Part shown: positions 5,739 to 23,161 of the stretch, piece by piece | Layout: each line of letters starts with the position of its first letter | Position numbering within the stretch: the stretch's first letter is position 1 | NCBI RefSeq assembly: GCF_900106075.1 | Contig: NZ_LT629794.1 | Span: 1-64,000, forward strand | DNA: 64,000 nt | Source: Polaribacter sp. Hel1_33_78 | Lineage (GTDB): Bacteria > Bacteroidota > Bacteroidia > Flavobacteriales > Flavobacteriaceae | Reading direction: 5' to 3' | Position numbers and translations under genes: made by a program | The notes under the pieces: model-generated | Databases searched by the model: none | Seen by the model: only the letters and a program-made list of their open reading frames with translations | What the model was told of the DNA's origin: nothing

Positions 5739-5757
5739 ATTCATAAAGTAAGTTTTC

Positions 5758-5765: not shown

Positions 5766-5787
5766 CAATAAATTAAACTTATAGATT

Positions 5788-6372: not shown

Positions 6373-6373
6373 A

Positions 6374-6979: not shown

Positions 6980-7128
6980 GGAAAATCATGTTTTAATTCT
7001 CTTTTACTGTCTAATTTTATATCTGTTAAGTGACTCTGTTTTTATCGGTTTAATTCCGTTCATTTAACAATAGACTGTTATTCATAATAGTCGTTTTATA
7101 TTTTTTAGAAACATTAAAGAGTTAAAAG

Positions 7129-7860: not shown

Positions 7861-7869
7861 TAAAAAAAT

Positions 7870-7892
7870 CCAGCTTAAAAGCTGGGTTTTTA
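7870..7892 (+). terminator. terminator of tonB-like gene
   Basis: CCAGCTT (7870-7876) pairs with AAGCTGG (7879-7885), followed by a T run, 9 bp after the stop. Confidence 0.8.
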
Positions 7893-8158
7893 ATTAGATC
7901 AAAATGGTCATTATAATTTTCGCTAATCTGTATAATAAGTCGCAATTATAATTTTTTAGTGAAGCCATCTTTGTGTTCATTTTATAAAGTACTCCAAAAT
8001 TTGTTGTAAAGAAAAACTCTATATCTGTTATGGTATAAAGACGTCAAAACGTAAATAATCATGTATAACATGGACTGTAAAACAATACATTCTCGTATCT
8101 TTTATGACTTCATGATTTTCTTCTTGTTTCTTTGATACCGGAAGAACCCAAAACAAGA
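7893..8158. other. non-coding interval before the displaced glmS terminator
   Basis: No gene-like reading frame, RNA or strong repeat was seen here. Before the island arrived this was the convergent intergenic space between tonB and glmS. Confidence 0.5.
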
Positions 8159-8197
8159 GAGAGGTGATTTCTACGATACACGTAAAAATCACCTCTC
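8159..8197 (-). terminator. original glmS terminator, now stranded by the island
   Basis: A perfect 12-bp stem (8159-8170 with 8186-8197; arms GAGAGGTGATTT and AAATCACCTCTC). Read on the minus strand it lies 30 bp after the remnant of the original glmS stop codon (8227-8229). It was therefore most likely the terminator of glmS, now about 15 kb away. It is not followed by a long T run. Confidence 0.6.
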
Positions 8198-8226
8198 CTA
8201 TATTTTCAATTAAAGCTACTATGAGT

Positions 8227-8238
8227 TTACTCTACTGT
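8227..8238 (-). pseudogene. displaced 3' tail of glmS
   Basis: On the minus strand these 12 bases read ACA GTA GAG TAA (Thr-Val-Glu-stop). This matches the glmS end Thr-Val-Glu-stop now encoded by ACA GTG GAG TAG at 23150-23161. It is the host's original end of glmS, cut off by island integration. Confidence 0.7.
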
Positions 8239-8275
8239 AATGGTTTAATTCGTTGTGACAATTACTCTTACTCCT
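8228..8275. repeat. attL: left junction of the island
   Basis: Contains the direct-repeat copy TACTCTACTGT (8228-8238) with the proposed GT crossover dinucleotide at 8237-8238, a 14-bp spacer, then the left arm of the 23-bp inverted repeat (8253-8275, begins TTGTGACAATTACTC). The recombinase stop codon TAA (8275-8277) shares its last base with the repeat. Confidence 0.75.
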
Positions 8276-10167
8276 TAAACCTTTTTTAGTACTTTTCCTT
8301 TAAGTGTTCGGTAGTAAGATGAGAGTTTTGGTTTATCCCACTTCTTTCCTGTCGGGGTTAATAACCTTTCCTTATTTAATTTATCACATATATTTTGTAA
8401 TGATAAAAACTCTACTTCTTTAAGTTGAATTATTCTTTCATTTAAACCTTTACGAACTTCTTTATTTAACTTAGTTCTTATTTGTGTTGGTTTTTTGAAC
8501 CTGAAGTTTACTTTCCTATCCCCATCTATTATTTTATAATCCTTAAACCCAGTTTCATCTATATTACCTTTATTATTATAAATCAATTTATCACCTACAA
8601 TTGGTAATCTGAAATTGATAGTAATATCGTGTTCTTTCGATTTCTCATCAAAGAAAACTTGAATATTCTGAACATTACGATTTATGAAACCTCTTTTTTC
8701 TTCTAACGATAGGTTCTGTACTTTTTTTACATCTTTCTCCATTTTTGAAATCCAATTAACCCATCCTTTTGATTCAGAAATTAATCTCTCCTCTTTTGTG
8801 ATTAAATCCATCTCCTCCTCAACTATTTCAATAGATATTTTAAATTTCTCTCGAAGTTTATCACCAACTGATTCACTTATTTTTTTAGTTCTAACATCAT
8901 ACTCTATCTGTATTTGTTCATCTTCTAAACTCTCTAATTCTCTTCTTTTGTTTCGTAATTTTGTTCCAATACTACCCAATCTTTTGGAGTTCTTAGACTC
9001 TGAATCCCATTTTGGAGATAAATCTTTTATTTTGTACTTCTCTCTAACAATCGATGATTTAGTAATAATCTCTGTAATCTTGTTTAGGAGTTTTTCATCA
9101 GTCTCTATGATATTCAAACTCCTCTTCATTTTACAATTTGTTTTATTGTAATTTTTCTTTTTATCGTTAAGGTAATCTTCATTATGTTTCCAACTGTATT
9201 CTGAACACCTACCGTAGTACTGTTGAGAATTTCCTCTTTTTCTATAAGATAAACTCAACCCACATTCATCACATACAATAGTTCCACCAAGAATATGGTC
9301 GGTAGGAATATTCTTTTTTCTTTTTTGAAGATGGAGATTCATTTTTTGATTTACACTATCCCATAAATCTTTTTCAATAAGTTGAGGGGTATCAATCGTT
9401 ATCTCATCAACAGTAGTTATATCTCCATTTGGAAGTTTTTCCTCCCATTTCCATACTTGTTTTCCAATATAAATTGTGTTCCTCATCATTTTTTGAAGTG
9501 TCCCTAAATTCCATCCTAATTTGGTTCTCCGAGGTTTAATATCTGGTATCTTATCAAGATACATTTTAATATCCATTGTACTTTTACCCTGGTTGTACAT
9601 CGTGAATATCTTTTTTAGATGGAAACTCTCTTTTAAATTTTCTTTAAGTTTTTTGTTTTTTACAGTATATCCAAAAGGTATGGTTGAACCTAGATAGGTG
9701 TTTCCACTTCGAAGGGAGTTTCGTTTTCCCATAATACTTCTCATCCTTCTCAACTCATTATCATATTGTGATATTAAAGAAAGTACTCCTATCATTAATT
9801 TATCAGGTGAGTTATTTAAGTCATATGGTTTCGTTGAATCTCCAATATAAATTTGAACCCCATAATCGATAAACACTTTTAGAATAGAGTACCAAGATTG
9901 AGAATACCTACCCAACCTATCTGTATTAAATACCCAAACTTTTCTTATCCCATTAGGTTTTTGAATCTCATCCAACAACTCGACTAATTTTGGACGATGG
10001 TTTATTTCAACCTTAAAAGAACTTTGAACCCCTTCATCAAATTCTTGATGTTTTAATCCTAATATTTCGGATATTTTTCTTCCAAGTTCCTTTTGGATAT
10101 CAAGAGAACTACCGTCTGTTTCTTGAGGTTTTGAACTAACTCTATATAATAATCCTATTTTCTCCAT
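8275..10167 (-). CDS. large serine recombinase (island integrase)
   Basis: About 630 residues from the preferred start at 10167 (MEKIGLLYRVSS); an in-frame Met at 10200 is possible but adds residues not typical of the family. Domains: N-terminal resolvase fold with the nucleophile serine in YRVSS and the FNTDRLGR active-site arginine region; recombinase domain around FGYTVKNKKL to GWNLGTLQKMMRN; zinc ribbon CDECGLSL with later cysteines; a long coiled coil (residues about 390-480); and a C-terminal helical motif ICDKLNKERLLTPTGKKW. Large serine recombinases integrate unidirectionally at attB/attP and need a directionality factor to excise. Its end coincides with the island's left repeat, so it is the natural candidate for having inserted the island into glmS. 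Confidence 0.9.
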   Translation of the reverse strand: MEKIGLLYRVSSKPQETDGSSLDIQKELGRKISEILGLKHQEFDEGVQSSFKVEINHRPKLVELLDEIQKPNGIRKVWVFNTDRLGRYSQSWYSILKVFIDYGVQIYIGDSTKPYDLNNSPDKLMIGVLSLISQYDNELRRMRSIMGKRNSLRSGNTYLGSTIPFGYTVKNKKLKENLKESFHLKKIFTMYNQGKSTMDIKMYLDKIPDIKPRRTKLGWNLGTLQKMMRNTIYIGKQVWKWEEKLPNGDITTVDEITIDTPQLIEKDLWDSVNQKMNLHLQKRKKNIPTDHILGGTIVCDECGLSLSYRKRGNSQQYYGRCSEYSWKHNEDYLNDKKKNYNKTNCKMKRSLNIIETDEKLLNKITEIITKSSIVREKYKIKDLSPKWDSESKNSKRLGSIGTKLRNKRRELESLEDEQIQIEYDVRTKKISESVGDKLREKFKISIEIVEEEMDLITKEERLISESKGWVNWISKMEKDVKKVQNLSLEEKRGFINRNVQNIQVFFDEKSKEHDITINFRLPIVGDKLIYNNKGNIDETGFKDYKIIDGDRKVNFRFKKPTQIRTKLNKEVRKGLNERIIQLKEVEFLSLQNICDKLNKERLLTPTGKKWDKPKLSSYYRTLKGKVLKKV

Positions 10168-10268
10168 AAGGGTAAGGTTGACACAGTTTAATTTAACCAA
10201 ATGTAAATATAATGTGTGTTAAAATATAATCTTACTCCTTAAAATTTTTAAAACTTAATAAAAGATAA

Positions 10269-10367
10269 CAGAATGAAGAACAATTAACCAAATACAAATC
10301 TCTTTTTGATAGTGGATTACTCCCAAAAGAAGTTTATTTAGAAGAGGTAAGGAAAATAATGGGTTAA
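10269..10367 (+). pseudogene. start-less SHOCT-like fragment
   Basis: Between the recombinase and hsdM, a 32-codon open stretch reads EEQLTKYKSLFDSGLLPKE, then VYLEEVRKIMG and a stop. The pattern (L..Y..L.DSG.L..E.....) resembles the SHOCT short C-terminal oligomerisation domain. There is no start codon: the frame is preceded by TAA at 10266-10268. I read it as the tail of a lost gene. Confidence 0.45.
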
Positions 10368-10499
10368 TGAGTTTACACTATCCCACCTTTCATTCTTTAC
10401 AACTACAACTCCAAAATTCTTATATTTCATACAATTAATTCAAAAAAAAGGGTCTTTAAAACACCCTAAATTGACTATATTGTCCCTTAAAAAAATACG

Positions 10500-12206
10500 A
10501 TGAATAACCATAATGAAATTTCTTCTTTTGTATGGAACGTTTGTGACGATGTACTTAGAGGATTATTTAAACAACACGAATACGGAGATGTAATCCTTCC
10601 TTTCTTAGTACTTAGAAGATTGGATTGTGTTATTGAACCAAAGAAAGATGAAATTATTGAACTCTACAATGAGTTGAAAGATGAGGTTGACCCAACCCCA
10701 ATTATAAAAAAACAAACAGGATTAAAATTCTTTAATCACTCTAACTACGATTTACAAAGATTGAAGGGAGACCCAAATGGATTGAAGGTTAACTTCCCTA
10801 ACTATATAAGTGGTTTCTCTCAAAATGTATTTGAGATTTTAGAAAATTTCCAATTAGAAAAACCAGTTGAAAAACTCCTTAAGAACAACAAACTATATCT
10901 TTTAATAGATAAGTTTACTGAGATAGATTTACACCCTAATAAGGTAGATAATCATACAATGGGACAAGTCTTTGAGGAACTTCTTCGTAAGTTTTCAGAG
11001 ATGTCTAACGAAACTTCGGGAGAACACTACACCCCTCGTGATGTGGTTAAACTTTTAGTTTCTATGGTTTTTTCTGAAAGTGAAGAACACTTAAAAGGAG
11101 ATGGAATTATCCGTTCTATTTTTGACCCTTGTTGTGGTACAGGTGGTATGTTAACGATTGGTAAGGAATGGATTGAGGAAAACATTGATAATAAGGTTCG
11201 TTTAAACCTTCAAGGACAAGAATTAAACCCACACACCTATTCTATTTGTAAATCTGATATGTTGATTTCAGGTGAAGACCCTGACAATGTAAAGTTAGGT
11301 TCTTCTTTATCTGAAGACCATTTTGAAGGTAGAAAGTTTGATTATATGATAACCAATCCTCCATTTGGGGTAAGTTGGAAATCTGAGAAAGAGTTTGTGG
11401 AAGAAGAATCTAAAAACCCTTATGGAAGATTTAGTGTAGGAACTCCAAGAGTTTCTGATGGTTCTTTATTATTCCTACAACATCTTATTTCTAAGATGAA
11501 AGAGGAAGGTTCTCGTATAGGAATTGTATTCAATGGTTCTCCTCTTTTTACTGGTGATGGTGGAAGTGGTGAATCTGAAATACGTAAATGGATTATTGAA
11601 AATGATATGTTGGAATGTGTAGTTTCATTACCAGACCAATTGTTCTTTAATACAGGAATATCAACGTATATATGGATTGTAACCAATAAAAAGAAATCTC
11701 AACGAAAAGGAAAGGTTCAATTAATTGATGGTTCTACTTTTTACAAACCGATGAAAAAATCATTAGGAAGTAAACGAAAGAAAATATCCAAAGACCAAAC
11801 AGAATCACTTATTCAAACGTATCACAACTTTGAAGAAAATGAATTCTCTAAGATTTTTGACAATGAGTTTTTTGGATATACCAAAGTAACCATAGAACAA
11901 CCAACTATAAAAAACGATAAGGTTGTTAAGGATACAAAAGGAAATCCAAAACCAAACACTAAATTAAGAGATAGTGAGAGAATACCTCTTACCGAAGATA
12001 TTGAAGAATATTTTAACAGAGAAGTAGAACCACATTTACCTCATAGTTGGATGGATAGAGAGAAGGATAAAGTGGGTTATGAAATCAACTTTACAAAGTA
12101 TTTTTATCAGTACAAACCATTACGTAGTTTAGGAGATATTACCTCTGATTTATTGGAGTTAGAAAAAGAGAGTGAAGGAATCTTTAAAGAAATTATAAAT
12201 GAATAG
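10500..12206 (+). CDS. hsdM: type I restriction-modification methyltransferase subunit
   Basis: N6-adenine methyltransferase subunit of a type I system, modifying host DNA at the site chosen by HsdS. The 568 residues include the N-terminal HsdM helical domain (SSFVWNVCDDVLRG..YGDVILPFLVLRRLD), the AdoMet motif I DPCCGTGGML (about residues 210-219) and the catalytic NPPF motif in MITNPPFGVSW (about 284-294). A long C-terminal extension carries the SWMDREKDKVGYEINFTKYFY segment typical of this HsdM subtype. It overlaps hsdS by 8 bp (ATGAATAG), so translation is coupled. A small hairpin (GGGT/ACCC at about 10450-10466) precedes it. Confidence 0.95.
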   Translation: MNNHNEISSFVWNVCDDVLRGLFKQHEYGDVILPFLVLRRLDCVIEPKKDEIIELYNELKDEVDPTPIIKKQTGLKFFNHSNYDLQRLKGDPNGLKVNFPNYISGFSQNVFEILENFQLEKPVEKLLKNNKLYLLIDKFTEIDLHPNKVDNHTMGQVFEELLRKFSEMSNETSGEHYTPRDVVKLLVSMVFSESEEHLKGDGIIRSIFDPCCGTGGMLTIGKEWIEENIDNKVRLNLQGQELNPHTYSICKSDMLISGEDPDNVKLGSSLSEDHFEGRKFDYMITNPPFGVSWKSEKEFVEEESKNPYGRFSVGTPRVSDGSLLFLQHLISKMKEEGSRIGIVFNGSPLFTGDGGSGESEIRKWIIENDMLECVVSLPDQLFFNTGISTYIWIVTNKKKSQRKGKVQLIDGSTFYKPMKKSLGSKRKKISKDQTESLIQTYHNFEENEFSKIFDNEFFGYTKVTIEQPTIKNDKVVKDTKGNPKPNTKLRDSERIPLTEDIEEYFNREVEPHLPHSWMDREKDKVGYEINFTKYFYQYKPLRSLGDITSDLLELEKESEGIFKEIINE

Positions 12207-13506
12207 ATACCAATACTATAAAAACGTACCTGAAACATGGATTGGAGATATTCCTGTTCATTGGAAAATTTCTTTAGTTAGTAGACATTTTAATATTGGA
12301 AGAGGAAGAGTTATATCTAAAGTTGAAATTTTCGAGAATAAAGGTGATTTTCCAGTTTATAGTTCTCAAACAACAAATAATGGTGAATTAGGAAAAATTA
12401 ACACATATGATTTCGATGGAGAATATGTGACATGGACAACAGATGGAGCAAATACTGGTACATGTTTTCACAGAAATGGGAAGTTTAACACAACTAATGT
12501 TTGTGGAATGTTAAGTAAACGGAACATTCTTTTTGAACTTAAGTATTTGTGTTTCTATTTAAACCTTGTAACAAAACCATACGTTCGTATTGACATAAAC
12601 CCAAAGTTAATGAATAATATGATGGGGGGAATACCATTAATTGTTCCTCCAATATTCGAACAACAACAAATCGTATCCTTTTTGGATGATAAAACCCAAA
12701 AGATATATTCTCTTATCCAACAAAAAGAAAAGAAGATAGAACTCCTTAAAGAGAAAAGAACCTCACTCATTAACCATGTTGTAACCAAAGGTGTTAATCC
12801 CAATGTGGAGATGAAAGATTCTGGAGTGGAATGGATTGGTGAGATTCCAAGTCATTGGAATACTTCAAAGTTAAAATATCATGGTAATTTTTTTAGTGGT
12901 TACTCATTTGACAGTAATGATTTTCAAAATGAAGGTGAGGTAAGAGTTATTAAAATTTCTAACATTCAAAACAATGGTGTTTCTTGGGAAGATTTATCAT
13001 TTTTACCAAAAAACTATTATGACGATTTTGAAGGATTTAGAGTATTAAAAGGAGATTTAATTTTTGTTTTAACAAGACCTATAATCTCCACAGGAATTAA
13101 AGTATGTTTTTATCAGGAAGAACATTTAACTCTTTTGAATCAAAGAAATAGTGTATTTAGACCTGATGTAGATACTTTAGTAAAAAGATTTTTATTCTTT
13201 TTAGTTAGGACGTTTTACTTTTTTGAAGAATTCAAACAACAACTAAAAGGAAGTGGTCAACCAAATATATCTACAGAACAAATATCAAATATTAAAATCT
13301 ATTTACCCTCTCTTAAAGAACAACAACAAATCGTTGAGTATTTAGATAAACAAACAGAAGAAATTGATACCCTCATCCAATTAGAACAAAAGAAAATAGA
13401 TACTCTAAAAGAATATCGTCAATCTTTAATATCAGAAGTAGTAACAGGTAAAATAAGAGTATGTGAAGAAGATAATTCATTGATTTTAAACTCCCAAACC
13501 GTATGA
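12199..13506 (+). CDS. hsdS: type I restriction-modification specificity subunit
   Basis: Sets the DNA target of the M and R subunits. The 435 residues form two tandem halves, each starting with a PETWIGDIPVHW / VEWIGEIPSHW signature (residues about 10 and 210), then a variable target-recognition domain, then a conserved coiled-coil segment (EQQQIVSFLDDKTQKI.. and EQQQIVEYLDKQTEEI..). The repeated helices are so alike that the 17 bp GAACAACAACAAATCGT occurs in both (12658-12674 and 13318-13334). Two different recognition domains predict a bipartite asymmetric target. It overlaps hsdR by 4 bp (ATGA). Confidence 0.94.
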   Translation: MNRYQYYKNVPETWIGDIPVHWKISLVSRHFNIGRGRVISKVEIFENKGDFPVYSSQTTNNGELGKINTYDFDGEYVTWTTDGANTGTCFHRNGKFNTTNVCGMLSKRNILFELKYLCFYLNLVTKPYVRIDINPKLMNNMMGGIPLIVPPIFEQQQIVSFLDDKTQKIYSLIQQKEKKIELLKEKRTSLINHVVTKGVNPNVEMKDSGVEWIGEIPSHWNTSKLKYHGNFFSGYSFDSNDFQNEGEVRVIKISNIQNNGVSWEDLSFLPKNYYDDFEGFRVLKGDLIFVLTRPIISTGIKVCFYQEEHLTLLNQRNSVFRPDVDTLVKRFLFFLVRTFYFFEEFKQQLKGSGQPNISTEQISNIKIYLPSLKEQQQIVEYLDKQTEEIDTLIQLEQKKIDTLKEYRQSLISEVVTGKIRVCEEDNSLILNSQTV

Positions 13507-16454
13507 GAAAACCAAACGAAGAACGTTTCGAAAAACATATAGAACAAACCTTAATTCAACATGGGTATACTTCTCGTTTATATACGGAGTACGATAGAAA
13601 CCAATGTCAACTTCAAGAAGAACTCATAGAGTTTATTAAATCTACTCAAAAGGAAGAATATGATAAACTATACAAACAATTTGATACTTCAACAGATAAA
13701 CAACTGAGTAAGATTGTAAATGACCAAATCTCTAAAAGAGGGATTATTGATGTTCTTAGAAAAGGAATTAGTACAAGAGGATGTTCTTTTGATATGGTAT
13801 ATTTTGAACCAAAGAGTGGTTTGAATCCTGAACATCAATCTAAATTTGAAAAGAATCGTTTTGTATCAGTTCGTCAACTTCACTATTCTAATAAAAATGA
13901 GAATTCTATTGATTTGGTATTGTTCTTAAACGGAATACCAATTATTACAATGGAGTTGAAAAACCAACTCACAGGACAAAACATAAAGAACTCAGAGAAC
14001 CAATACAAATACGATAGAAACCCAATAGGAGAACCCCTATTACAGTTTAAAAGGTGTTTGGTACATTTCTGTGTAGATAACGATAAAGTATCTATGACTA
14101 CTCGATTGAGTGGTAACAAAACAAGGTTCTTACCTTACAATAAGGGGATAGAAAACCCATCTGTAAAAGATGATTTTCGTTCTGAGTATTTATGGAATGA
14201 AATCTTACTTCCTAATTCACTTTTAGATATCATAGAGAACTTTGTATTGGTATCCGTAGAATCTAAAAAGGAGTGGAATGATAAACTGAAAAAAGTAACT
14301 TTAGAAAAGGAAGAGATTCTTATATTCCCTCGTTACCACCAATTAGATGTTATTCGTAAAGTAAGGAGTAGTGTAAAAGAAGAAGGTGTTGGAAACAATT
14401 ACCTAATTCAACATACCACAGGTTCAGGTAAATCATTTAGTATTGGTTGGTTATCACATACCCTAACCTCATTGTATAAAACCAAAGAAGATACCAAACG
14501 AATGTTTGATACCATATTGGTAATTACAGATAGAAAGGTATTAGATAGTCAGTTAAAAAAGACTGTTAAAGATTTACAACAAACTGATGGGGTGGTGAAC
14601 CCAGTAGATATTAACTCAAAACAATTAAAAGAGTTTTTAGAAAAAGGAAAAGATATCATTGTAACTACAATTCAGAAGTTTCCTTTTATCTCTGAAACCA
14701 TTTCACAACTAAAAGGACAAACCTTTGGAGTAGTGATTGATGAAGTACATTCATCTCAGAGTGGAGAAACCTCTAAACACCTAAAGAAATCACTTTCAGG
14801 AGATGTTATTGAAAATGAGGATGGAGAGGTAGATTATGAAGAAATGATTCGTAAAGAAATTGAATCTAGAGGAAAACAACCTCATATATCTTTCTTTGGT
14901 TTCACAGGAACTCCTAAAAATAAAACATTAGAACTCTTTGGTAGAAAGAATGAAAATGATGGGTTTGAACCCTTCCATTCTTACTCCATGAAACAATCTA
15001 TTCACGAGGGATTCACTTTAGATGTATTAGAACATTATACAACTTATAAAAGATATTTTAAGGTAAAACAAACGGACACAGAGGATAAGGAATTACCTGA
15101 AGGACAGGTTATGAAACAACTTGTTGATTATGTAGATTCTCATGATGAGACCATTAATCAAAAGGTTAATATTATTCTTAATCATTTTACTTCATCAACT
15201 TCCAAAAAAATAAACGGAAGAGGAAGAGGAATGGTGGTAGTTCGTTCTCGTAAACATTGTGTTCTTTTCCATAAAGAAATGGTACGTCAAATGAAAGAGA
15301 GAGGACTTTCATATTCTTGTTTAGTAGGGTTTAGTGGTGTAGTTCATTTAAAAGGGGACCATAAGGAGTATACAGAAGTATCTCTAAATAAAGAAAACGG
15401 ATTAGAAGGTTCAAACATTCCAAGTGGTTTGAAAGACCCACGATTTAGAATCTTAATTGTATCCAATAAGTTTCAAACAGGATTTGATGAACCATTGATT
15501 CACTCTATGTATGTAGATAAGAAATTGAGTGGAGTTCAATGTGTACAAACCCTTTCAAGATTAAACAGAACGAAGAGTGGTAAAACAGATACGTTTGTTT
15601 TAGATTTTGTAAATGATACGGAAAAGATAGTAGAATCATTTCAACCATTTTATACATCAACCGTTCTAACAGGGGAAACAGAACCTGATAAACTATATGA
15701 TTTACAAAACGAAATAGAATCGTTTACCATCTTTTCAGATGACCATATTGATAGGTTTTGTAAAGAGTTTTATAAAGATACGGAAACAGATGAACGTTTA
15801 CACCCTATCATTGATGAGGTTGTAGATAACTTTAAGAATTTAGAAAATGATGAACAAAAAGAAGAGTTTAAATCTAAAATTCAATCTTTCATTCGATTGT
15901 ATTCTTACATCTCTCAAATCATCAATTTTACAGAAGTAAATTGGGAGAAACTATATGTATTCCTTCGATTCTTAAACAAGAAACTACCAAAAGGAATTAC
16001 TGAAAAAATTAGTATAATAGATTCAGTTGATTTAGGTTCTTTAAGAATTCAAATGATGGGAGAATCTCGTTTATCATTAGAAGATAAAGGTGGAGAAATC
16101 GAACCAATGTCTGGTGGAACAGGTGGTGGTATTGATGAACCAGAATTAGACCTTTTATCTCATATTATTCAACGGATTAATGAAGTTTATGGAATAGAGT
16201 TATCTGAGGAGGATAAAGTTGATTTGAAACAGGTAACCGAAAGATTAAAGAATAATGATGATTTGGTTTCTGTTATGATGGGTGATAATTCAGAGAGTGA
16301 TAAAAAAGATTGGTTCAAAAAGGAATTTGGTGGAGAGGTTTCTGAATACTACGGAGATAGATTAGATTTTTATAAGAAGATAATGAACCCTAAAGTCTTC
16401 CCAATGATATTAGAGGGGATGTATAAAGATTACAATAAAGATATAAGGAAGTAA
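13503..16454 (+). CDS. hsdR: type I restriction endonuclease subunit R
   Basis: Motor and nuclease subunit of 983 residues, full length for the family. Visible: an N-terminal PD-(D/E)xK nuclease motif (DLVLFLNGIPIITMELKNQ, residues about 138-156); helicase motif I TTGSGKS (about 305); DEAH-like IDEVHSSQSG (about 412); motif III FTGTP (about 467); a later QTGFDEP and QTLSRLNR region; and a C-terminal helical domain ending ..GMYKDYNKDIRK. It is translationally coupled to hsdS. The SIR2-like gene follows after only 12 bp. All catalytic motifs look intact, so restriction is probably active. Confidence 0.95.
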   Translation: MRKPNEERFEKHIEQTLIQHGYTSRLYTEYDRNQCQLQEELIEFIKSTQKEEYDKLYKQFDTSTDKQLSKIVNDQISKRGIIDVLRKGISTRGCSFDMVYFEPKSGLNPEHQSKFEKNRFVSVRQLHYSNKNENSIDLVLFLNGIPIITMELKNQLTGQNIKNSENQYKYDRNPIGEPLLQFKRCLVHFCVDNDKVSMTTRLSGNKTRFLPYNKGIENPSVKDDFRSEYLWNEILLPNSLLDIIENFVLVSVESKKEWNDKLKKVTLEKEEILIFPRYHQLDVIRKVRSSVKEEGVGNNYLIQHTTGSGKSFSIGWLSHTLTSLYKTKEDTKRMFDTILVITDRKVLDSQLKKTVKDLQQTDGVVNPVDINSKQLKEFLEKGKDIIVTTIQKFPFISETISQLKGQTFGVVIDEVHSSQSGETSKHLKKSLSGDVIENEDGEVDYEEMIRKEIESRGKQPHISFFGFTGTPKNKTLELFGRKNENDGFEPFHSYSMKQSIHEGFTLDVLEHYTTYKRYFKVKQTDTEDKELPEGQVMKQLVDYVDSHDETINQKVNIILNHFTSSTSKKINGRGRGMVVVRSRKHCVLFHKEMVRQMKERGLSYSCLVGFSGVVHLKGDHKEYTEVSLNKENGLEGSNIPSGLKDPRFRILIVSNKFQTGFDEPLIHSMYVDKKLSGVQCVQTLSRLNRTKSGKTDTFVLDFVNDTEKIVESFQPFYTSTVLTGETEPDKLYDLQNEIESFTIFSDDHIDRFCKEFYKDTETDERLHPIIDEVVDNFKNLENDEQKEEFKSKIQSFIRLYSYISQIINFTEVNWEKLYVFLRFLNKKLPKGITEKISIIDSVDLGSLRIQMMGESRLSLEDKGGEIEPMSGGTGGGIDEPELDLLSHIIQRINEVYGIELSEEDKVDLKQVTERLKNNDDLVSVMMGDNSESDKKDWFKKEFGGEVSEYYGDRLDFYKKIMNPKVFPMILEGMYKDYNKDIRK

Positions 16455-16466
16455 CAATATTTAAGT

Positions 16467-17408
16467 ATGGATTTATTTAAAAATCTAGAGGAGTTATGGG
16501 GGAAACCTTTGTTATTGGGTAATGGGTTTAGTGTTTTAAACAATCCAACTTTTAATTATACTAATTTAATTGATGAGATAAAAAATGAGTATGAAGACGA
16601 AATGACAACTATTTTAAATGATAACAATAATAAAAATATAGAAGAAATATTGTTTAAAATCCAATCGAGTATTGAAATCTGTAAAATATTAACTATTGAC
16701 GTTGAAAAAATTAAAAAAGTAGAAGAAAAACTAAAAAAAAGTTTTATCGAGACAATAACAAAAATTCAACCAGATTGGAATTTCTTTAAAACCGAATCAG
16801 GAACCTTATTTGGTAATCAATTAAAAAAGTTTGGAAATATTTTCACTACAAATTATGATTTAAATCTATATTATTTAATGGTACAATCTAAAAATGGGTT
16901 GATAAATCATTCTGACAACTTCTCTAATGATGGAAATTATTTGAAATTTGATAATGAAAACAATGAAATACATAGACATCACATTTATTATTTACACGGA
17001 AACATAATGTTGTTCAGTAATGAAGATAATGTGTACAAAGTAAGACATTCACAAGGTCAAAGAATAGTTTCACAAATTGAAGAAAACTTAAATAATAACT
17101 ATCTCCCTTTAATCATAACTGAGGGAAACTCTGAACATAAATTAAATAAAATAAATGGGAATAAATACTTAAGGTTTTGTTTTAAAGAATTTAATAAACT
17201 TAAATCTTTGGTCATATTTGGTCATTCTTTAAGTGAATTTGATAAACACATATTAGATGTTATAAATGATTCTAAAAAAAGAGTTTATTATGGATTAAAT
17301 AAACCTACAAATGAAAAAATTAACAAAGTAAAATCTTTATTTGGTGAAAATATTGAACTTAAAATTTTTAACTCAAGTTTACTTTTCAATACTGACCAAA
17401 ATTCTTAA
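16467..17408 (+). CDS. SIR2-like DUF4917 protein coupled to the type I RM operon
   Basis: Protein of 313 residues matching the DUF4917/SIR2-like pattern: LLLGNGFSV near the N-terminus (residues 15-23), IFTTNYDLNLYYL (about 126-138), YYLHGNIMLF (about 171-180), ITEGNSEHKL, and VIFGHSLSEFDKHI (about 250-263). GNGFS, TTNYD, LHG and GHSLSE are the spaced landmarks of SIR2-like nucleotide-binding folds, several of which deplete NAD in phage defence. NADase activity here is inference. It begins 12 bp after hsdR, so it is probably the last gene of that operon. Composition looks more AT-rich than hsdM/R, suggesting it joined the cluster separately. Confidence 0.75.
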   Translation: MDLFKNLEELWGKPLLLGNGFSVLNNPTFNYTNLIDEIKNEYEDEMTTILNDNNNKNIEEILFKIQSSIEICKILTIDVEKIKKVEEKLKKSFIETITKIQPDWNFFKTESGTLFGNQLKKFGNIFTTNYDLNLYYLMVQSKNGLINHSDNFSNDGNYLKFDNENNEIHRHHIYYLHGNIMLFSNEDNVYKVRHSQGQRIVSQIEENLNNNYLPLIITEGNSEHKLNKINGNKYLRFCFKEFNKLKSLVIFGHSLSEFDKHILDVINDSKKRVYYGLNKPTNEKINKVKSLFGENIELKIFNSSLLFNTDQNS

Positions 17409-17625
17409 AGAGAATTCATTACTCTATCAATCTTCTCCAGTAAAAAAAAATGACTCCGATAAAATAACGAGTAAGACCTCTATTTTATAAAAAAGTATTT
17501 CTCTCAGTTACAAGAAACCCCCCTTCTACTTCCCTTTAATTTATAAATAAATAGGGTTCACTTTATTTGGATATATCATAGGTTTTTAATACATTTAAGT
17601 GTTGAAATTAAAAGGAATCACTATT

Positions 17626-18255
17626 ATGAATAAAATGGTAATTAAGTACAATAGAACATCAACTATCAATCAAAAGGGAGGAAGGTTTGAGTTAGATAAG
17701 AACAAATACGATTTAACTATAAACGATTTTGGAGTTAGTGGTAAAATACCTTTCAAAAAGAGAGAAGGAGGTTTTCAACTTATTGAACTGGTAAATGAGA
17801 GTAAGGTTGAGAAAATTGTTTTTGAGGATTTGAGTAGGTGTGGTAGAACTCTGAAAGATTCAATTAATACATTGGATTTCTTTTTGGAAAAGGGTGTGGT
17901 AATAAAAATCAGAAACATTGGTATTGAATCTCATACTCCTAATGGTGATAAAAACCCTATGTGGAATATTGTTACTTCTATCCTTTCATCAGTTTATGAA
18001 ATGGAAAGAGAGAGAATCTTAGAGGTTACAGAGATGGGTAGGAAAAATTATGTAATGAAGGGTGGAAAGTTAGGAAGGAAGTTAGGAAGTAAAGAAGATA
18101 CTGTTGTTTGGTTAAATAAACCTCAAACCAAATCCATTATGAAACTTCTCAAAATGGGAAAATCTAATAGAGATATTATTGGAAGGTTGAATTGTTCTCC
18201 TAAAACAATTACAAAGTGTAGAAATCATTTGAAACAAGATTTAATTATTGTGTAA
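17626..18255 (+). CDS. small serine recombinase (resolvase/invertase type)
   Basis: About 209 residues. The N-terminal catalytic domain starts IKYNRTSTINQKGG (nucleophile serine in RTST), followed by FEDLSRCGRTLKD with the expected arginines, and EMERERILEVTEMGRKN of helix E. The C-terminal part, MKLLKMGKSNRDIIGRLNCSPKTITKCRNHL, is a helix-turn-helix. An in-frame start at 17599 exists, but MNKMVIKYNR is the better match to family N-termini. It could resolve dimers or invert a segment; no paired inversion sites were recognised. The stop overlaps the next ATG (TAATG). Confidence 0.85.
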   Translation: MNKMVIKYNRTSTINQKGGRFELDKNKYDLTINDFGVSGKIPFKKREGGFQLIELVNESKVEKIVFEDLSRCGRTLKDSINTLDFFLEKGVVIKIRNIGIESHTPNGDKNPMWNIVTSILSSVYEMERERILEVTEMGRKNYVMKGGKLGRKLGSKEDTVVWLNKPQTKSIMKLLKMGKSNRDIIGRLNCSPKTITKCRNHLKQDLIIV

Positions 18256-18416
18256 TGAGTAAAAAGAAAAAATTAAATAAAAAAATCAGAGATAGTTATG
18301 GAACTATTACTCTGAAAGAATTAATTGATAGAGGTGAGTGTTCTCCATTTCATCACTTGAGTGATGGAAATTATATCGGAGGGTTAACAATACCTAATTC
18401 AACTGGAATTAATTAA
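18255..18416 (+). CDS. small hypothetical protein coupled to the resolvase
   Basis: A 53-codon frame starting in the TAATG overlap with the resolvase stop. The product has a lysine-rich start (MSKKKKLNKKIRD) and continues SYGTITLKELIDRGECSPFHH. I recognise no family. The tight coupling argues it is translated. Confidence 0.5.
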   Translation: MSKKKKLNKKIRDSYGTITLKELIDRGECSPFHHLSDGNYIGGLTIPNSTGIN

Positions 18417-18423
18417 ACCTAAT

Positions 18424-18691
18424 ATGGAAACAAAAAGAATAATTAAAAAATATAACATTAGTGAAGATGAACTTAATTCACTTCGTAGATTTTGTGAAAT
18501 AATAATTGATTTTAAAGGAAATAAGAACAAACAAACTTTACATACTAATCATTTCAAATAAAATAATCTATCAATCTGATTCTTATTGGTTCTTACAACC
18601 TCACTACAAAGAAAAACCCCCACCATTACTGATGAGGGAGTTTCCAAATTATGAATATGAAGTAACAAAAATCATAACTCTTAATTTTTAA
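18424..18691 (+). pseudogene. small hypothetical gene, possibly frameshifted
   Basis: Starts METKRIIKKYNISEDELNSL 7 bp after the previous small gene and stops at 18561 after 45 codons. An overlapping frame then continues with protein-like text (YQSDSYWFLQPHYKEKPPP.. to 18691). The two pieces could be one ~85-residue protein split by a frameshift near 18540-18560, or a short gene followed by a chance frame. No family recognised. Confidence 0.35.
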
Positions 18692-18941
18692 TTAGTTCTA
18701 ACCTTTGAATACATTTATCTAAACTGAGATTCTTATCTAATGAAACTTCAATTCTTTCACCTAAGTTCTCATAGAACATAAACTGACATAAAACCTCATT
18801 TGTCCAATAGTTTCTTTTTTGAACTATTCCATATCTAAACATACCACTCTCATCTAAATAGGTTTTTGTGTAGGTAGTGTTTTCTTTGATTTTCCCTAAT
18901 GGGGAATTAACCGATTCTCTTAATCTTATTTTATTACTCAT
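18681..18941 (-). CDS. hypothetical protein (island)
   Basis: About 86 residues from the preferred start MSNKIRLRESVN (18941); a longer start at 18977 is possible. It begins inside the end of the upstream gene on the same strand (overlap of a few bases), so the two are coupled. The product has beta-rich text (TTYTKTYLDESGMFRYGIVQKR) and a C-terminal helix. No family recognised. Its end runs against the small + strand gene. Confidence 0.6.
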   Translation of the reverse strand: MSNKIRLRESVNSPLGKIKENTTYTKTYLDESGMFRYGIVQKRNYWTNEVLCQFMFYENLGERIEVSLDKNLSLDKCIQRLELIKN

Positions 18942-19551
18942 ATCTCTTAATTTTATTTGTTTTAAAATACTCTTCAATTAACTTATCCCAAAGTTTTATC
19001 TCTTTTTCACCAAAATAAACTTTGTAATTTTCGTAGTTAGGTTGAAAATCAAATTTTAACTTCACTCCACTCTCAACCAATTTTTCAATATCACTATTTA
19101 TGAGTTCCTTTAACTCAGAAGGTTTTGGTCTTTTCACATAATGATTTATTACACTCCACAAATCTCTACCAATGGGAATTCCCTTTCCTATTTCATCTAT
19201 ATATTGAATAACACTATCTGATTCCTTATCAGTTATTATCCCATTCAAACTCAGAATACTATTATTGATTCCAAAATGAGGAGTAACTTTAATGATATAT
19301 TGGATTTCATCATCTACATCACTACCAACAACCATAAGGTGTTTGTAATTTTTGAAAGAGAAGTTCGTTCCATATTTGAAATACTTTCTTTCATCGTTAT
19401 TTGAAGTACCCTTTAACACTTTGTTTCCGTTTTGAGGTTGGTTAGGATTATTCACCACATCCCTTTGTAATAGTGAATCAATTAATTTGTTAAACTTTTT
19501 GTTGTTTTCTTCCATTTGTTTGGAAACTTTATTTTCTAATTGTTTTTCCAT
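18934..19551 (-). CDS. hypothetical protein (island)
   Basis: Protein of 205 residues, no recognised family. The N-terminal ~35 residues are charged and helical (MEKQLENKVSKQMEENNKKF), probably a short coiled coil, followed by a polar linker and a mixed alpha/beta region with GKGIPIGRDLWSVINHYVK. Its 3' end overlaps the next minus gene by 8 bp. No signal peptide or membrane helix. Confidence 0.65.
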   Translation of the reverse strand: MEKQLENKVSKQMEENNKKFNKLIDSLLQRDVVNNPNQPQNGNKVLKGTSNNDERKYFKYGTNFSFKNYKHLMVVGSDVDDEIQYIIKVTPHFGINNSILSLNGIITDKESDSVIQYIDEIGKGIPIGRDLWSVINHYVKRPKPSELKELINSDIEKLVESGVKLKFDFQPNYENYKVYFGEKEIKLWDKLIEEYFKTNKIKRYE

Positions 19552-19654
19552 TTTGATTTAATTTATATAACTTTTATCAGTTGGTTCTCACTTATTATAT
19601 TAGGGAGGAGAAACCGTTAACCCCTTTTACATCTATATATTTAGTACTCAATTC

Positions 19655-19692
19655 ACTTACACACTAATTTGATTTTTAGTGTTAGTGATTTT
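19655..19692. repeat. island hairpin repeat, copy 1
   Basis: ACTTACACACTAATTT.. with stem ACACTAA (19661-19667) / TTAGTGT (19676-19682), then a T run. It overlaps the 3' end of the minus-strand gene 19657-20082. Confidence 0.7.
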
Positions 19693-20082
19693 TTTCAACC
19701 ACCATTCTTCAATTTCATCCATCCCATAATCCGATTCAATATGTTTATAGAAATCTTCTTTATTAGTGAAAACATACCTTCCAAATGAACCTTCATAATC
19801 ACAAAAATCAGAATTGAAAAAGGGTTGATTAACTCTTTTATCCCAAATGATAAATTGTTCTTTATTGTAATGTTTATGAACTGAAAAAGTGATGTGATGA
19901 ATAACTCTTCTCTCTTTTTCTTTTGGTTCTCCATTTTCATCCCAATAATTAGGATTCAATGTATTTACCAAATACTTTCCATCTGAATCACTACAACCAT
20001 CATACTCTACATTAAAACCCATTTTCGTAATGATGTGATTTGAAACTTCATTCAACAACTCATTTGTTTTTACTTTACTCAT
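19657..20082 (-). CDS. hypothetical protein (island)
   Basis: Protein of 141 residues, no recognised family. It contains a polar, aromatic-rich centre (RRVIHHITFSVHKHYNKEQF) and a C-terminal DEIEEWWLKK. The last codons (TKNQISV) are encoded inside one copy of the hairpin repeat found twice more upstream (20214-20251 and 20324-20361), so the repeat forms this gene's 3' end. Confidence 0.6.
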   Translation of the reverse strand: MSKVKTNELLNEVSNHIITKMGFNVEYDGCSDSDGKYLVNTLNPNYWDENGEPKEKERRVIHHITFSVHKHYNKEQFIIWDKRVNQPFFNSDFCDYEGSFGRYVFTNKEDFYKHIESDYGMDEIEEWWLKKITNTKNQISV

Positions 20083-20213
20083 AATTTAATTTGTGATGTT
20101 ATCCCATTTCACTCCATCGGTTTTGTTATTAATTAATTTTTGATTCTCTTTTATTTATTGAGGTTTCAAATCTCATTTCCCTCACTAACAATACTATAGT
20201 TAGTCGATGTTTT

Positions 20214-20251
20214 ACTTACACACTAATTTTATTTTCAGTGTTGGTAATTTT
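20214..20251. repeat. island hairpin repeat, copy 2
   Basis: Same ACTTACACACTAATTTTATT start as copy 3. Stem arms ACACTAA (20220-20226) and TCAGTGT (20235-20241) have one mismatch. Confidence 0.7.
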
Positions 20252-20323
20252 TATTAATTCTCACTTTTAATAGGTGGAGAATTTTAACCCCTTAATTACT
20301 CTCCTTAAATTACTCGAGAGATT

Positions 20324-20361
20324 ACTTACACACTAATTTTATTCTTAGTGTTAGTAATTTT
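20324..20361. repeat. island hairpin repeat, copy 3
   Basis: Perfect 7-bp stem ACACTAA (20330-20336) / TTAGTGT (20345-20351). It lies 33 bp before the start of the + strand gene at 20394, so it may act in its leader. Confidence 0.7.
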
Positions 20362-20393
20362 ATTATTATTCTAAAATTCTTAAATTTGGAAAT

Positions 20394-21110
20394 ATGGAAG
20401 ACAAGTGGAGAATCAATAAAATCGGAGATGATTTTTATTTCATTCCAAAAAAGGAAAGAGAGGAAAAGTTAGAGTATGAACGATTACTGAGTAATATCAG
20501 TAAAAGGGAAAAGAAAATTGAATCTGAATTAGTAAAGATTGGAAAACTCAAAGAAGATTTGAGGAATATGAAAAAGGATAGAACTAAGGGATTTAATAAA
20601 ATGATTAAGTATCATAAAAAGTTCCTACCTTCTTTTTCAATATTCTTGGATGGTGATGATTTTAACCCTCAATGGGGTATGTGGGTCTCAATTGGTGGTA
20701 AGAGAAAATATATATATATCGGTACCGTTGGTGATGTATCGTATCACTTAGATTTATTAGAAGATAATGTTCCTCATTACAATAAGAATAATAGATATGA
20801 GGATGGACCAGTAGGATATTATAATTCATTAAACCCTAAGAATTACGAGGGTGATGAACATAAAGAAATCATCATATCCAAAATTGAATCTTATGTTTGT
20901 GATGTTGTTAAGAAGAAGATGTTAGGTATTTTAAAGAAAGATGGGAATTTAGATAGGTTCTATGATAAAAAATATAAATTGAAAGGAATTGAAATTCTTT
21001 ATGATTTATATAAAAAATCTCCACATTACACACCTCCTCAGAAAGAAAGAGAAAAGAAAAAAGGAGGAAGATTAAAACCTCTGAATGTTGGTAAAAAGAA
21101 AGTCTGGTAA
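20394..21110 (+). CDS. hypothetical coiled-coil protein paired with the EEP nuclease
   Basis: Protein of 238 residues, no recognised family. Residues about 18-65 are highly charged and helical (KKEREEKLEYERLLSNISKR), a likely coiled coil. The middle has a beta-like segment WGMWVSIGGKRKYIYIGT that faintly recalls a DNA-binding beta sheet. The C-terminus is very basic (KEREKKKGGRLKPLNVGKK). The stop is 8 bp before the nuclease gene, so the two probably form one operon. The basic tail and neighbour suggest nucleic-acid binding, which is inference only. Confidence 0.65.
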   Translation: MEDKWRINKIGDDFYFIPKKEREEKLEYERLLSNISKREKKIESELVKIGKLKEDLRNMKKDRTKGFNKMIKYHKKFLPSFSIFLDGDDFNPQWGMWVSIGGKRKYIYIGTVGDVSYHLDLLEDNVPHYNKNNRYEDGPVGYYNSLNPKNYEGDEHKEIIISKIESYVCDVVKKKMLGILKKDGNLDRFYDKKYKLKGIEILYDLYKKSPHYTPPQKEREKKKGGRLKPLNVGKKKVW

Positions 21111-21118
21111 ATTAAAAC

Positions 21119-21841
21119 ATGAGAGTAATAACATGGAATTGTAAACAAAATTTTAGAAAAAAATATTCAGATATTGAATTTTTTAATCCTGATATTTTAG
21201 TAATTCCTGAATGTGAATCTTTGGATAAGATAAATTTTAAGTTATTCAAAAATCCTCCTACGGATTCTTATTGGATTGGAGAAAACCAAAATAAAGGATT
21301 AGGAGTTTTTACTTTTAACAATTTTAAAATAACTCTTTATAAAAACTATAATGAAGATTTTAAATATGTACTTCCTCTTATCATATCAAATAATAGTGAA
21401 ACATATAATCTAATTGGAGTCTGGACTCAGAAAATTGGACCCAAGAAAAAGAACCATATTAATTACATAAGACAATTTAAACTTTCAATGGAAGTTTATA
21501 AACCCTTCTTAAATTTTAAAAACATAATAATCTGTGGGGATTTTAATAGTAATCTAATTTGGGATAACCCTTTTAGGATAGATAAAGTTCATAAGAAAGT
21601 TATAGATGATTTAGAAGAAATGAAAATATTCAGTTCCTATCATAACTTCTTTAATGAAGAACAGGGTAAAGAATCAATACCAACTTATTACCACACTCAT
21701 AATAAGGAAAAACCTTTTCATATAGATTATTGTTTTTTATCTAAGAACTTATTGGATAGAGTTGTTAAAGTTACAATTGGTGAATATGACAATTATATTG
21801 ATAAGAGTGACCATGTACCAATTTATATAACTATAAATTAA
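21119..21841 (+). CDS. endonuclease/exonuclease/phosphatase-fold nuclease
   Basis: Protein of 240 residues with the EEP (DNase I-like) catalytic set: ITWNCKQNF (Asn, residues 4-12), VIPECES (metal-binding Glu, about 29-35), ICGDFNSN (about 139-146), HIDYCFLS (about 200-207) and the terminal KSDHVPIYITI with the catalytic His. No signal peptide, so probably cytoplasmic and acting on nucleic acid or phospho-ester substrates. Linked to the coiled-coil gene 8 bp upstream. The composition is very AT-rich. Defence, repair or anti-restriction roles are all possible. Confidence 0.8.
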   Translation: MRVITWNCKQNFRKKYSDIEFFNPDILVIPECESLDKINFKLFKNPPTDSYWIGENQNKGLGVFTFNNFKITLYKNYNEDFKYVLPLIISNNSETYNLIGVWTQKIGPKKKNHINYIRQFKLSMEVYKPFLNFKNIIICGDFNSNLIWDNPFRIDKVHKKVIDDLEEMKIFSSYHNFFNEEQGKESIPTYYHTHNKEKPFHIDYCFLSKNLLDRVVKVTIGEYDNYIDKSDHVPIYITIN

Positions 21842-21948
21842 CGATTGTTTCTAATCGGTATCAAAATCAATAATTTAAATTAATACATCAATCAACAAAG
21901 AAACCAAATTCCATCAACTGATATATTAATTACAAATCTTTCATTCTT

Positions 21949-21991
21949 TATAGTATATCAAATAGTGATTCATTCTTATTTTGATACTATA
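21949..21991. terminator. bidirectional hairpin between convergent genes
   Basis: TATAGTATATCAAA (21949-21962) pairs with TTTGATACTATA (21980-21991) with a 2-nt bulge. It lies between the EEP nuclease (+) and the excisionase-like gene (-), with T-rich flanks. Confidence 0.5.
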
Positions 21992-22003
21992 CTTATTTTT
22001 GAA

Positions 22004-22189
22004 CTACACTAAACTATGATTTTGTTTCATTTGATTTTCCCATTCTAATAAATCGGTTTTCCTGATGTATTTTTTATGAGATGATATTTCTATCATTGGT
22101 AACCCAAACCTTCTTCTCCATTCTTCTATGGTGGTTCTATTTACATTATACATCTTCATTAATTGTTGTTTGGTTATTCTTTCTTCCAT
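22004..22189 (-). CDS. excisionase-like helix-turn-helix protein
   Basis: Protein of 61 residues made almost entirely of a winged-helix DNA-binding motif: ITKQQLMKMYNVNRTTIEEW, then RRRFGLPMIEISSHKKYIRKTDLLEWE. This is the MerR/Xis-like pattern of small excisionases. As the only such protein in an island driven by a large serine recombinase, it is a candidate directionality factor, though it could be a plain repressor. It overlaps the upstream small gene by 16 bp. Confidence 0.7.
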   Translation of the reverse strand: MEERITKQQLMKMYNVNRTTIEEWRRRFGLPMIEISSHKKYIRKTDLLEWENQMKQNHSLV

Positions 22190-22386
22190 TGTTTTTCTTC
22201 TTCTTTTTTTAATAGTTCTTTAAATAATTTTTGATACCCTTCTTTATCTTTTTTCATTCGATAAGGTTCTAATTCTTTGTGGAAGTTTTTAACCAGTTTT
22301 GATTTTCTGATGAACTCATCTGTGAACTCTTTTGAATTATCTTTTATCCATTGTATAGATTTAGAATCTAATTTATTTTGTTTCAT
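22174..22386 (-). CDS. small hypothetical protein upstream of the excisionase-like gene
   Basis: Protein of 70 residues, strongly charged and helical (KNFHKELEPYRMKKDKEG, LKKEEEKQWKKE). No family recognised. Its 3' end overlaps the excisionase-like gene by 16 bp, so they are translated together. Confidence 0.55.
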   Translation of the reverse strand: MKQNKLDSKSIQWIKDNSKEFTDEFIRKSKLVKNFHKELEPYRMKKDKEGYQKLFKELLKKEEEKQWKKE

Positions 22387-22817
22387 TATCTATCAGTTTT
22401 ATATAAATAGTATCAACCTTTAGTTTTAAGTAAAAGGTTGTAATCTTTTTTTCAAACTTTTTAAATTGTTTGAATTCATAAAATATTTCACAATTAGATA
22501 TAAAGATTCCATTAGGGAATTATTCCCTTTATTGAAAACTTTACCATTTTTCAGTTGAATCTAACAAATACCCCAACAACGATTCTTCCTATATGTATTT
22601 TTACGAGTTCATACCTTTCTTCCTTTACCTCTCGGAACACTAATGAATGGTTTTACCTATCGGTGAGTATTGTTCATTATCGGATTCTTCCCCCTGTGTC
22701 AGGTGTAGTTCTCGGTAGATTAAGTATTTCTTAAAGTAATCTACAACTCAGTAGAACAATGTGTTCTGAGTATAAGTATTACAAAGTGAAGGAAAACGTA
22801 AAAAAATAGAAGGATTT
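22387..22817. other. 431-bp non-coding interval near the right end of the island
   Basis: No convincing reading frame on either strand. It holds several dyads, including CTCAG..GTTCTGAG (22747-22770) and AATGAA/TTCATT around 22640-22675, and short CGGnnnnnnTATCGG-like repetitions. It probably contains the promoter for 22174-22386 and may carry regulatory or replication sequences; neither can be shown. Confidence 0.4.
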
Positions 22818-23145
22818 TTATTTAATAACTTCTACAATAGGAGGAGTAACAACAACTACATCTTGTTTATTTATTCGTTCTTCACGAATTAAACCTTTCT
22901 TATAAATGGAATGAACGTGGTTGTTTTTAAATACATTTCCACGAGGTGTTTTTAATCCTTCCTCATTTAGAATTTGAGATATCTTTCTGTATCCAATAGG
23001 GGTAAGAAAATGTTCTTTTAAACCCCTTATTTTATCAAATAAATACTTCTGATATCCTGAATATGGAGAACTCCAAAGATGTGTAGTTCTTATTGATATT
23101 GAGAAGGTTACTAACAGTTTGTAGGAGTAAGAGTAATTGTCACAA
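22818..23145 (-). pseudogene. start-less serine-recombinase C-terminal fragment
   Basis: An open minus-strand frame that begins in the right inverted repeat and ends at TAA 22818-22820. It reads CDNYSYSYKLLVTFSISIR, then SSPYSGYQKYLFDKIRGLKE, GYRKISQILNEEGLKTPRG and NNHVHSIYKKG. The last part is the short helical motif found at the C-terminus of many large serine recombinases and resembles the end of this island's own integrase. There is no Met in the frame and no catalytic domain. The frame stays open across attR, out of frame with glmS. In the excised circle it would lie just downstream of the integrase and attP, on the same strand. Confidence 0.6.
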
Positions 23146-23161
23146 GCAACTACTCCACTGT
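23123..23161. repeat. attR: right junction of the island
   Basis: The right arm of the 23-bp inverted repeat (23123-23145, ends GAGTAATTGTCACAA), a 14-bp spacer, then GT at 23160-23161 inside the direct-repeat copy TACTCCACTGT (23151-23161). The junction overlaps the last codons and stop of glmS. Confidence 0.75.

Follow-up and report, generated by a model that had tools for sequence, protein, structure and literature searches.

The window analysed here comprises the first 64,000 nucleotides of contig NZ_LT629794.1 from Polaribacter sp. Hel1_33_78 and contains a 14.9 kb island (positions 8237–23161) in the 3' end of the essential gene glmS. Among the genes of this defence-carrying island are those of a large serine integrase and of a type I restriction system. 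The target gene (23150–25006, minus strand) ends in ..NLAKSVTVE*, and the insertion point is the Thr codon (codon 616, the third-last residue) of its terminal Thr-Val-Glu. The core dinucleotide AC of the attachment site attL (23160–23161, minus strand) lies in this codon. The displaced glmS tail ACA GTA GAG TAA is found at the opposite end of the island (8227–8238, minus strand) and contains the AC core of attR (8237–8238, minus strand). The two AC copies are spaced by 14,923 bp and coincide exactly with the island limits that had been proposed in an earlier note on this DNA. The P' arm (23124–23145, minus strand) is a perfect 22 bp inverted partner of the P arm (8253–8274, plus strand), and when the island ends are joined computationally into attP these arms stand 14 bp on either side of AC (14+AC+14). 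The arm pair of the window agrees at 26 of 30 positions, compared with a mean of 10.5 (standard deviation 3.0, maximum 20) for 110 mispaired arms. To judge from the sequence, this is the geometry that a serine-integrase attP centred on the dinucleotide AC should have. The last codons of glmS are re-encoded by the P' arm of the island; the P' half carries ACNGTNGARTAR, and GlmS is therefore kept whole after insertion. Computed removal of the island with joining of the flanks gives a glmS gene reading ..SVTVE*.

AC is the best centre of arm symmetry in ten of 14 elements (nine of 11 in a first set and one of three in a second). The symmetric arms around AC, the presence of homologues at the same codon in other Bacteroidota families and the occurrence of both empty and occupied sites in one genus support the interpretation of this region as an integrative island that is moved by a large serine integrase, with the glmS 3' end as attB and probable strand exchange at the AC of the Thr codon. 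This is in agreement with the earlier note, which had placed the integration inside the Thr codon of the terminal Thr-Val-Glu; the arms are centred on AC and the joined flanks restore SVTVE*.

The 3' end of glmS is the classic target of Tn7 (PMC4046053). In the portion of that paper used here, Tn7 is described as recognizing the conserved glmS 3' end at attTn7 and inserting downstream of the coding region via TnsABC and TnsD (PMC4046053), whereas the serine integrase of the island would exchange strands inside codon 616 and re-encode the tail. A Tn7-like element that has lost its Tns genes and retains the serine integrase as a passenger would account for the choice of target, but the exchange point within the coding sequence, the centring of the arms on AC and the lack of a Tns domain in the ten island proteins scanned make this explanation extremely improbable. 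The same scan and the junction inside the coding sequence support the earlier claim that the island is devoid of Tns genes and independent of Tn7. A search of the genome for TnsA gave no match, but is uninformative as its control matched nowhere either.

The integrase (8275–10200, minus strand; 641 amino acids) contains the Pfam domains Resolvase (PF00239, 5e-17) and Recombinase (PF07508, 3e-14), both above the cut-off, and is thus the large serine recombinase that the earlier note had recognized. Arg20, Ser22, Arg95 and Arg98 are invariant among 15 aligned integrase sequences and presumably correspond to the conserved Ser and Arg residues of large serine integrases. The match to Zn_ribbon falls below the cut-off, and Cys310, Cys313, Cys332 and Cys356 are invariant in the same alignment. 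The predicted structure, a model of modest confidence (pLDDT, predicted local distance difference test, 68.5), has long helices at residues 364–496. By sequence profile, the nearest solved relatives are the A118 and TP901-1 integrases (PDB entries 4KIS and 3BVP), from which the island system differs in having att arms that reach 36 bp from the core and in the extra C-terminal domains of its integrase. The A118 attP half-site is roughly 25 bp and thus shorter than this 36 bp reach.

A reading frame of some 100 amino acids (22818–23117, minus strand), situated just inside the attL arm, is homologous to the integrase's own C-terminal domain and is referred to here as RD-only. The RD-only domain is aligned by hhalign to integrase residues 578–631 (91%, E value 1e-6). 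In the window its frame is −1 relative to both glmS and the integrase, is open through the core and has no ATG, GTG or TTG start. An RD-only protein unrelated to the integrase was considered as a candidate and rejected on the basis of the domain homology and the frame relation. A search for RD homologues (E threshold 1e-3) yielded 320 clusters. With a ratio of non-synonymous to synonymous substitution (dN/dS) of about 0.24–0.45 in three pairs, the domain is under purifying selection. It is present in seven of 126 genomes of the genus, the five new ones all having it directly behind glmS (three with stops), and in 31 of 395 genomes of the order. The order search gave 44 matches besides the window; loci were obtained for 29 of these, which together with the locus L140 described below make up 30 RD loci (L111–L140), and the core adjoins the RD gene in 21 of them. 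In a further locus, L141, the RD domain also lies directly behind glmS. A fold search with the RD model returned no significant match, the best relevant one being a serine integrase (probability 0.69, E value 0.7).

One possible explanation is that this is an ordinary large serine integrase island in which the RD-only gene encodes an independent att-linked protein with its own start, such as a directionality factor or repressor. We consider this unlikely. Several RD-only proteins do start with ATG, the domain is under purifying selection and it is kept in elements without an integrase, all of which would suit such a protein; the window copy, on the other hand, lacks any of the three start codons, and the frame relations set out below are also at odds with it.

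Among the 20 integrase loci two main arrangements are found. In class A (nine loci: the window, L062–L068 and L074) the integrase is at the far end of the element and its stop codon lies 36 or 39 bp before the core. In class B (five loci, in genomes G042, G022, G126, G849 and G916) the integrase is at the glmS end, its core is 30 bases ahead of its stop and its tail, YSTVTDFAKFLG or close to it, is read from the antisense of the host glmS. Of the remaining loci, that of G974 (L085) crosses the core in the other orientation, those of G880 and G055 stop four and eight bases past the core start, respectively, two are ended by contig borders, and in L140 the gene continues into the domain. From these arrangements attP is placed inside the integrase gene or directly behind it.

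The homology of the class B proteins to the window integrase stops at residues 538–565, ahead of the C-terminal domain of the latter. Among 24 attR hits to the domain at the far end, 19 (17 of 22 places) share the class B frame and the other five that of the G880 tail. In every one of the 24 the frame runs open across the core, which argues against independent translation of the domain. These 24 hits represent 22 places, as the G045 and G049 loci occur twice, and one G022 copy was removed by a 150 bp filter. Computed end-joining of G022, the arms of which are not symmetric, and of L085 gives one continuous frame. A natural counterpart is provided by L140, a 7404 bp IMG/VR contig with an exact 77 bp terminal repeat, in which integrase, core and domain form a single open reading frame of 733 amino acids. 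Assembly of a circle can leave a repeat of this length, and the contig is apparently circular. Both the in-frame class B domain and its fusion in L140 speak against an independent RD protein. In class B and L085, then, attP lies within the integrase frame: the integrated tails cross the core, the computed junctions are in one frame and L140 is fused. An unaltered inverted copy of P-AC-P' is present in G126, where the terminal portion of an integrase accompanies it in the same frame.

Two side observations concern these loci. L140 is filed as viral and may be an excised island. In G126 (L082 and L083, concatenated position 26468) the P-AC-P' copy lies inside a stack at glmS, with end segments of 1.25 kb and 0.46 kb that are identical to the outer ends, and suggests an inversion within tandem copies.

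No in-frame fusion of integrase and domain is seen in class A. A heptamer of the form X XXY YYZ is instead found in the integrase frame exactly at core−49 in all nine class A integrases. In the window it reads A AAA AAG (8281–8287, minus strand; core−49 to core−43), a −1 slippery sequence; six others have C CCA AAG, one C CCA AAT and one G GGA AAG. The spacer between heptamer and arm is 6 nt and the −1 frame is open from the heptamer to the core, again in nine of nine. As a background, such heptamers start at 55 of 4720 codons (1.2%) in eight class A genes, the partial gene of L074 being omitted. The codon preceding the heptamer (Leu, Thr, Ile or Val) ends in C in seven of seven C CCA AA[GT] cases, compared with 10% of codons. 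The −1 frame is that of the domain, with the same phase in 14 of 15 attL hits, and the domain's frame is open from the core to the domain in 15 of 16 attL copies (the exception is L109; four others stop further inside the domain), which is not what a separately started protein would lead one to expect. Were the RD protein independent, the heptamer would be a by-product of the nearby sequence, but its position is outside the arms, and four of the five integrase-less elements tested lack it.

Joining of the window ends places a stem of −44.8 kcal/mol right after the heptamer, compared with −6.6 kcal/mol at attR and −17.0 kcal/mol at attL; for L068 the junction hairpin is −36.1 kcal/mol versus −12.5 and −11.5 kcal/mol at the att ends. 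The computed −1 frame would append 128 amino acids in the window and 136 in L068, the domain included. The computed window junction thus displays the features of a programmed −1 frameshift site, namely a heptamer in frame, a short spacer, a stem-loop and an open −1 frame, and we infer that frameshifting at the heptamer would fuse the domain to the integrase only in the circle. It is through this predicted frameshift alone that attP of the window falls within the integrase frame. −1 Frameshifting at a heptamer of the A AAA AAG type with a stem-loop behind it is familiar from dnaX and from transposases of the IS1/IS3 type; the island differs from these in that attP itself is the stem-loop, which only the circle would possess.

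The layout suggests that an extra end piece becomes available to the integration enzyme only while the island is an excised circle, because insertion separates this piece from the integrase gene. We therefore read the whole as a glmS island with attP within or behind the integrase gene and a domain that would be joined to the integrase only in the circle, either in frame or by a −1 frameshift, and assign this reading a probability of roughly 0.77. The sequence itself provides the target codon, the arm symmetry, the empty and occupied sites, the domain homology, the frame relations, the conserved heptamer and, on one apparently circular contig, a fused gene; what we infer from these is that frameshifting occurs, what the extra domain does and how excision is controlled. 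In the circle of one lineage the domain would be joined to the integrase in frame across attP. In that of the window lineage some ribosomes would slip by −1 at the heptamer, with the attP arms acting as the stimulating hairpin, and the slipped product would be an integrase with a second C-terminal DNA-binding domain. This long form, or a mixture of long and short forms, would integrate at glmS. Integration would take the domain to attL, leave the integrase at attR and break the hairpin; as the domain is moved and the hairpin removed, the long form would no longer be made and only the short integrase would be left. The short integrase alone should favour staying integrated, and excision would then require a directionality factor, perhaps the HTH_17 protein at 22004–22189, or an incoming circle. 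The choice between integration and excision by serine integrases is usually ascribed to a separate directionality factor. A bolder proposition, which we hold to be somewhat more likely than not, is that these glmS-targeting serine integrases as a family turn their own integration into a protein switch, with the attachment site as a movable border within the integrase gene. In the window lineage the attP arms would then also serve as an RNA frameshift signal, and an integrase with the additional DNA-binding domain would be made only from the excised circle and no longer after insertion.

Several observations weigh against this interpretation. With one copy of the C-terminal domain already present in the window integrase, the short form may be fully active. 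Class A is represented by no natural circle, the window junction being a computed join, and the terminal repeat of L140 could also come from a tandem array. The hairpin results from the att arms irrespective of any frameshift, and the nine class A sequences are related to each other. One integrase-less element, G022el3, keeps the heptamer (GGGAAAGTAA there), which may be what is left of a lost integrase's end. The records of some RD-only proteins, P0122 among them, begin with an ATG of their own, so that the domain may be translated separately. Nine of the 30 RD loci have no core nearby; seven of these are without the 5' part of the domain and two (L130 and L139) have it. Among the 16 attL copies of the domain, those of L108, L109, L110, L129 and L132 contain stops. 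Arm symmetry at AC is absent in four of the 14 elements (G022el1, G022el2, G1208 and G1217), and five of the 23 integrase homologues are not at glmS.

The split could also be degenerate: integration would have cut the gene and left fossils, as with the int(N) and int(C) pseudogenes of archaea. Several RD copies are indeed broken (L100, L101, L102, L130, L131, L133 and L134), and many elements are without an integrase resembling that of the window. The purifying selection on the domain, the third-base bias at the heptamer, the fused gene on the apparently circular contig L140 and the existence of about 30 metagenome clusters with integrases that are 89–91% identical to that of the window all argue against such decay, which we regard as quite improbable.

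The nearest design to the proposed integrase switch is, by analogy, that of the suicidal (SSV1-type) tyrosine integrases of archaea. According to the relevant sections of PMC8371274, which concern SSV1, pTN3 and pT26-2, attP of these elements likewise lies inside the integrase gene, integration parts the N-terminal from the C-terminal portion, fossils of these portions persist, and excision may need an intact copy. The glmS island differs in that the catalytic part of its integrase stays whole and only the C-terminal domain is removed, in that one lineage would use −1 frameshifting, and in that the enzyme has serine rather than tyrosine recombinase domains. The same sections describe self-splitting integrases as exclusive to archaea (PMC8371274); if our interpretation is true, they extend to bacteria and to serine recombinases, and the DNA rearrangement itself changes the integrase protein. 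Distantly related large serine recombinases are described in passages of PMC10083194 as converging on one conserved gene, for example the Mg chelatase/protease gene, a likeness to the present case, where distant integrases share one target. In the main text of that paper glmS is counted 0 times, and the passages considered contain no split gene. Among the titles and starts of abstracts that searches of the open PMC literature listed, there was no report of this split glmS-integrase system. As attB is short, coding and strongly conserved and lies where insertions are tolerated, these integrases could suit strain engineering.

Integrase homologues are rare. With the own genome included, matches were found in six of 59 relatives (E threshold 1e-3) and, at an E threshold of 1e-20, in three of 397 genomes of the family, four of 395 of the phylum and nine of 395 of the order. 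Besides the window these and a further search gave 23 homologues, counted as distinct genes, with weaker second hits in G916 and G126 left uncounted. Eighteen of the 23 adjoin glmS, or the core ACNGTNGARTRR of a glmS tail, within the fetched locus. The five away from glmS are 23–25% identical to the window integrase or, in G046, a short decayed fragment; some glmS-linked integrases are equally distant (24–26%), so that identity alone cannot separate the two groups. In the seven loci from named genomes (six metagenome-assembled genomes and Maribacter sp. ACAM166) the core lies 36 or 39 bp past the integrase stop without exception, and only L068 among them also includes glmS. A tree of 19 of the 23 homologues, rows of 400 amino acids or less being omitted, contains a single branch that parts 15 glmS rows from the four others (support 75/92); all glmS integrases may form a single clade. 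Phage and plasmid records gave no integrase homologue at an E threshold of 1e-20. A scan of viral contigs contained neither class A integrases nor the att-arm pattern; it yielded class B integrases in L140 and L141, the latter glmS-linked and without a terminal repeat, and the RD domain in one locus, L140. A class A integrase that is 50% identical to that of the window is found in L066, a record titled as a Woesearchaeota metagenome-assembled genome, and stands beside a Chitinophagaceae sequence in the tree; its taxonomic label is perhaps a binning error.

Empty sites, stacked elements and integrase-less elements are all present within one genus. The empty sites of G001, G005 and G006 consist of the glmS stop, about 30 bp, a terminator and tonB. 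The earlier note had expected an empty site followed by the hairpin at 8159–8197; empty sites do exist, but a site followed by this hairpin is not supported. G010 looks like the empty counterpart of an 828 bp element in G014. In G022, G045 and G126 several cores occur in succession and are read as stacked elements. The elements of G1176, G1217 and G1208 (1.1, 3.2 and 3.0 kb, respectively) have no match to the window integrase; each is followed by a terminator resembling the native one, with tonB behind it in G1208. Their arms agree at 19 of 30 positions in G1176, 10 of 30 in G1208 and eight of 30 in G1217. Of the three only those of G1176 are symmetric, and G1208 and G1217 may thus have altered ends. 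The elements that have similar ends but no integrase resemble satellites making use of a borrowed one. Small elements of two species (L041, 152–980, and L057 of G022, 14389–15519) share, by eye, a two-gene cargo of a membrane protein and an XRE-like regulator. At a contig border of L045 (G042:C6, position 9431) there is a second glmS 3' end with 79% DNA identity and a different arm next to it, perhaps from another strain in the assembly.

The hairpin at 8159–8197 belongs to a segment of its own (7896–8226, minus strand). This stretch of approximately 330 bp, which extends from the displaced glmS tail to the terminator on the tonB side, matches the same place in L068 (75.6% over 131 bp) and also a small protein of the G974 element (E value 1e-10), with stops in frame; no good match was found in 115 other genomes of the genus. 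The segment does not appear native and is probably what remains, in decayed form, of the left end of an older stacked element, the hairpin included. The hairpin was also considered as the native glmS terminator, which was rejected as it probably belongs to the decayed element that matches L068 and G974. A tandem duplication of the island in the genome was likewise rejected: window positions 1–17689 are 99.88% identical to the terminal 17.7 kb of the contig. This untrimmed contig-end overlap accounts for the second integrase copy in the genome record and for the duplication there of the island's left part.

The cargo of the island begins with the type I restriction system, all on the plus strand: the methyltransferase HsdM (10500–12206), the specificity subunit HsdS (12199–13506) and the restriction subunit HsdR (13503–16454). 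It is followed by a DUF4917/SIR2-like protein (16467–17408, plus strand), which is the PADLOC phage-defence candidate PDC-S21, and by a small serine resolvase (17599–18255, plus strand) with a 54% identical homologue in the G974 element. Three proteins are without assigned function (18934–19551 and 19657–20082 on the minus strand and 20394–21110 on the plus strand), the last of which has a 35% identical homologue in the G1217 element. An endonuclease/exonuclease/phosphatase-like protein (21119–21841, plus strand) is suggested by a weak Pfam match below the cut-off. The small excisionase-like HTH_17 protein (22004–22189, minus strand), the candidate directionality factor, is 97% identical in the G1217 element. 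Small serine resolvases are found repeatedly, being present in L085 (about 11859–12473) and, seen by eye, in L140 (5087–5770) as well as in the window.

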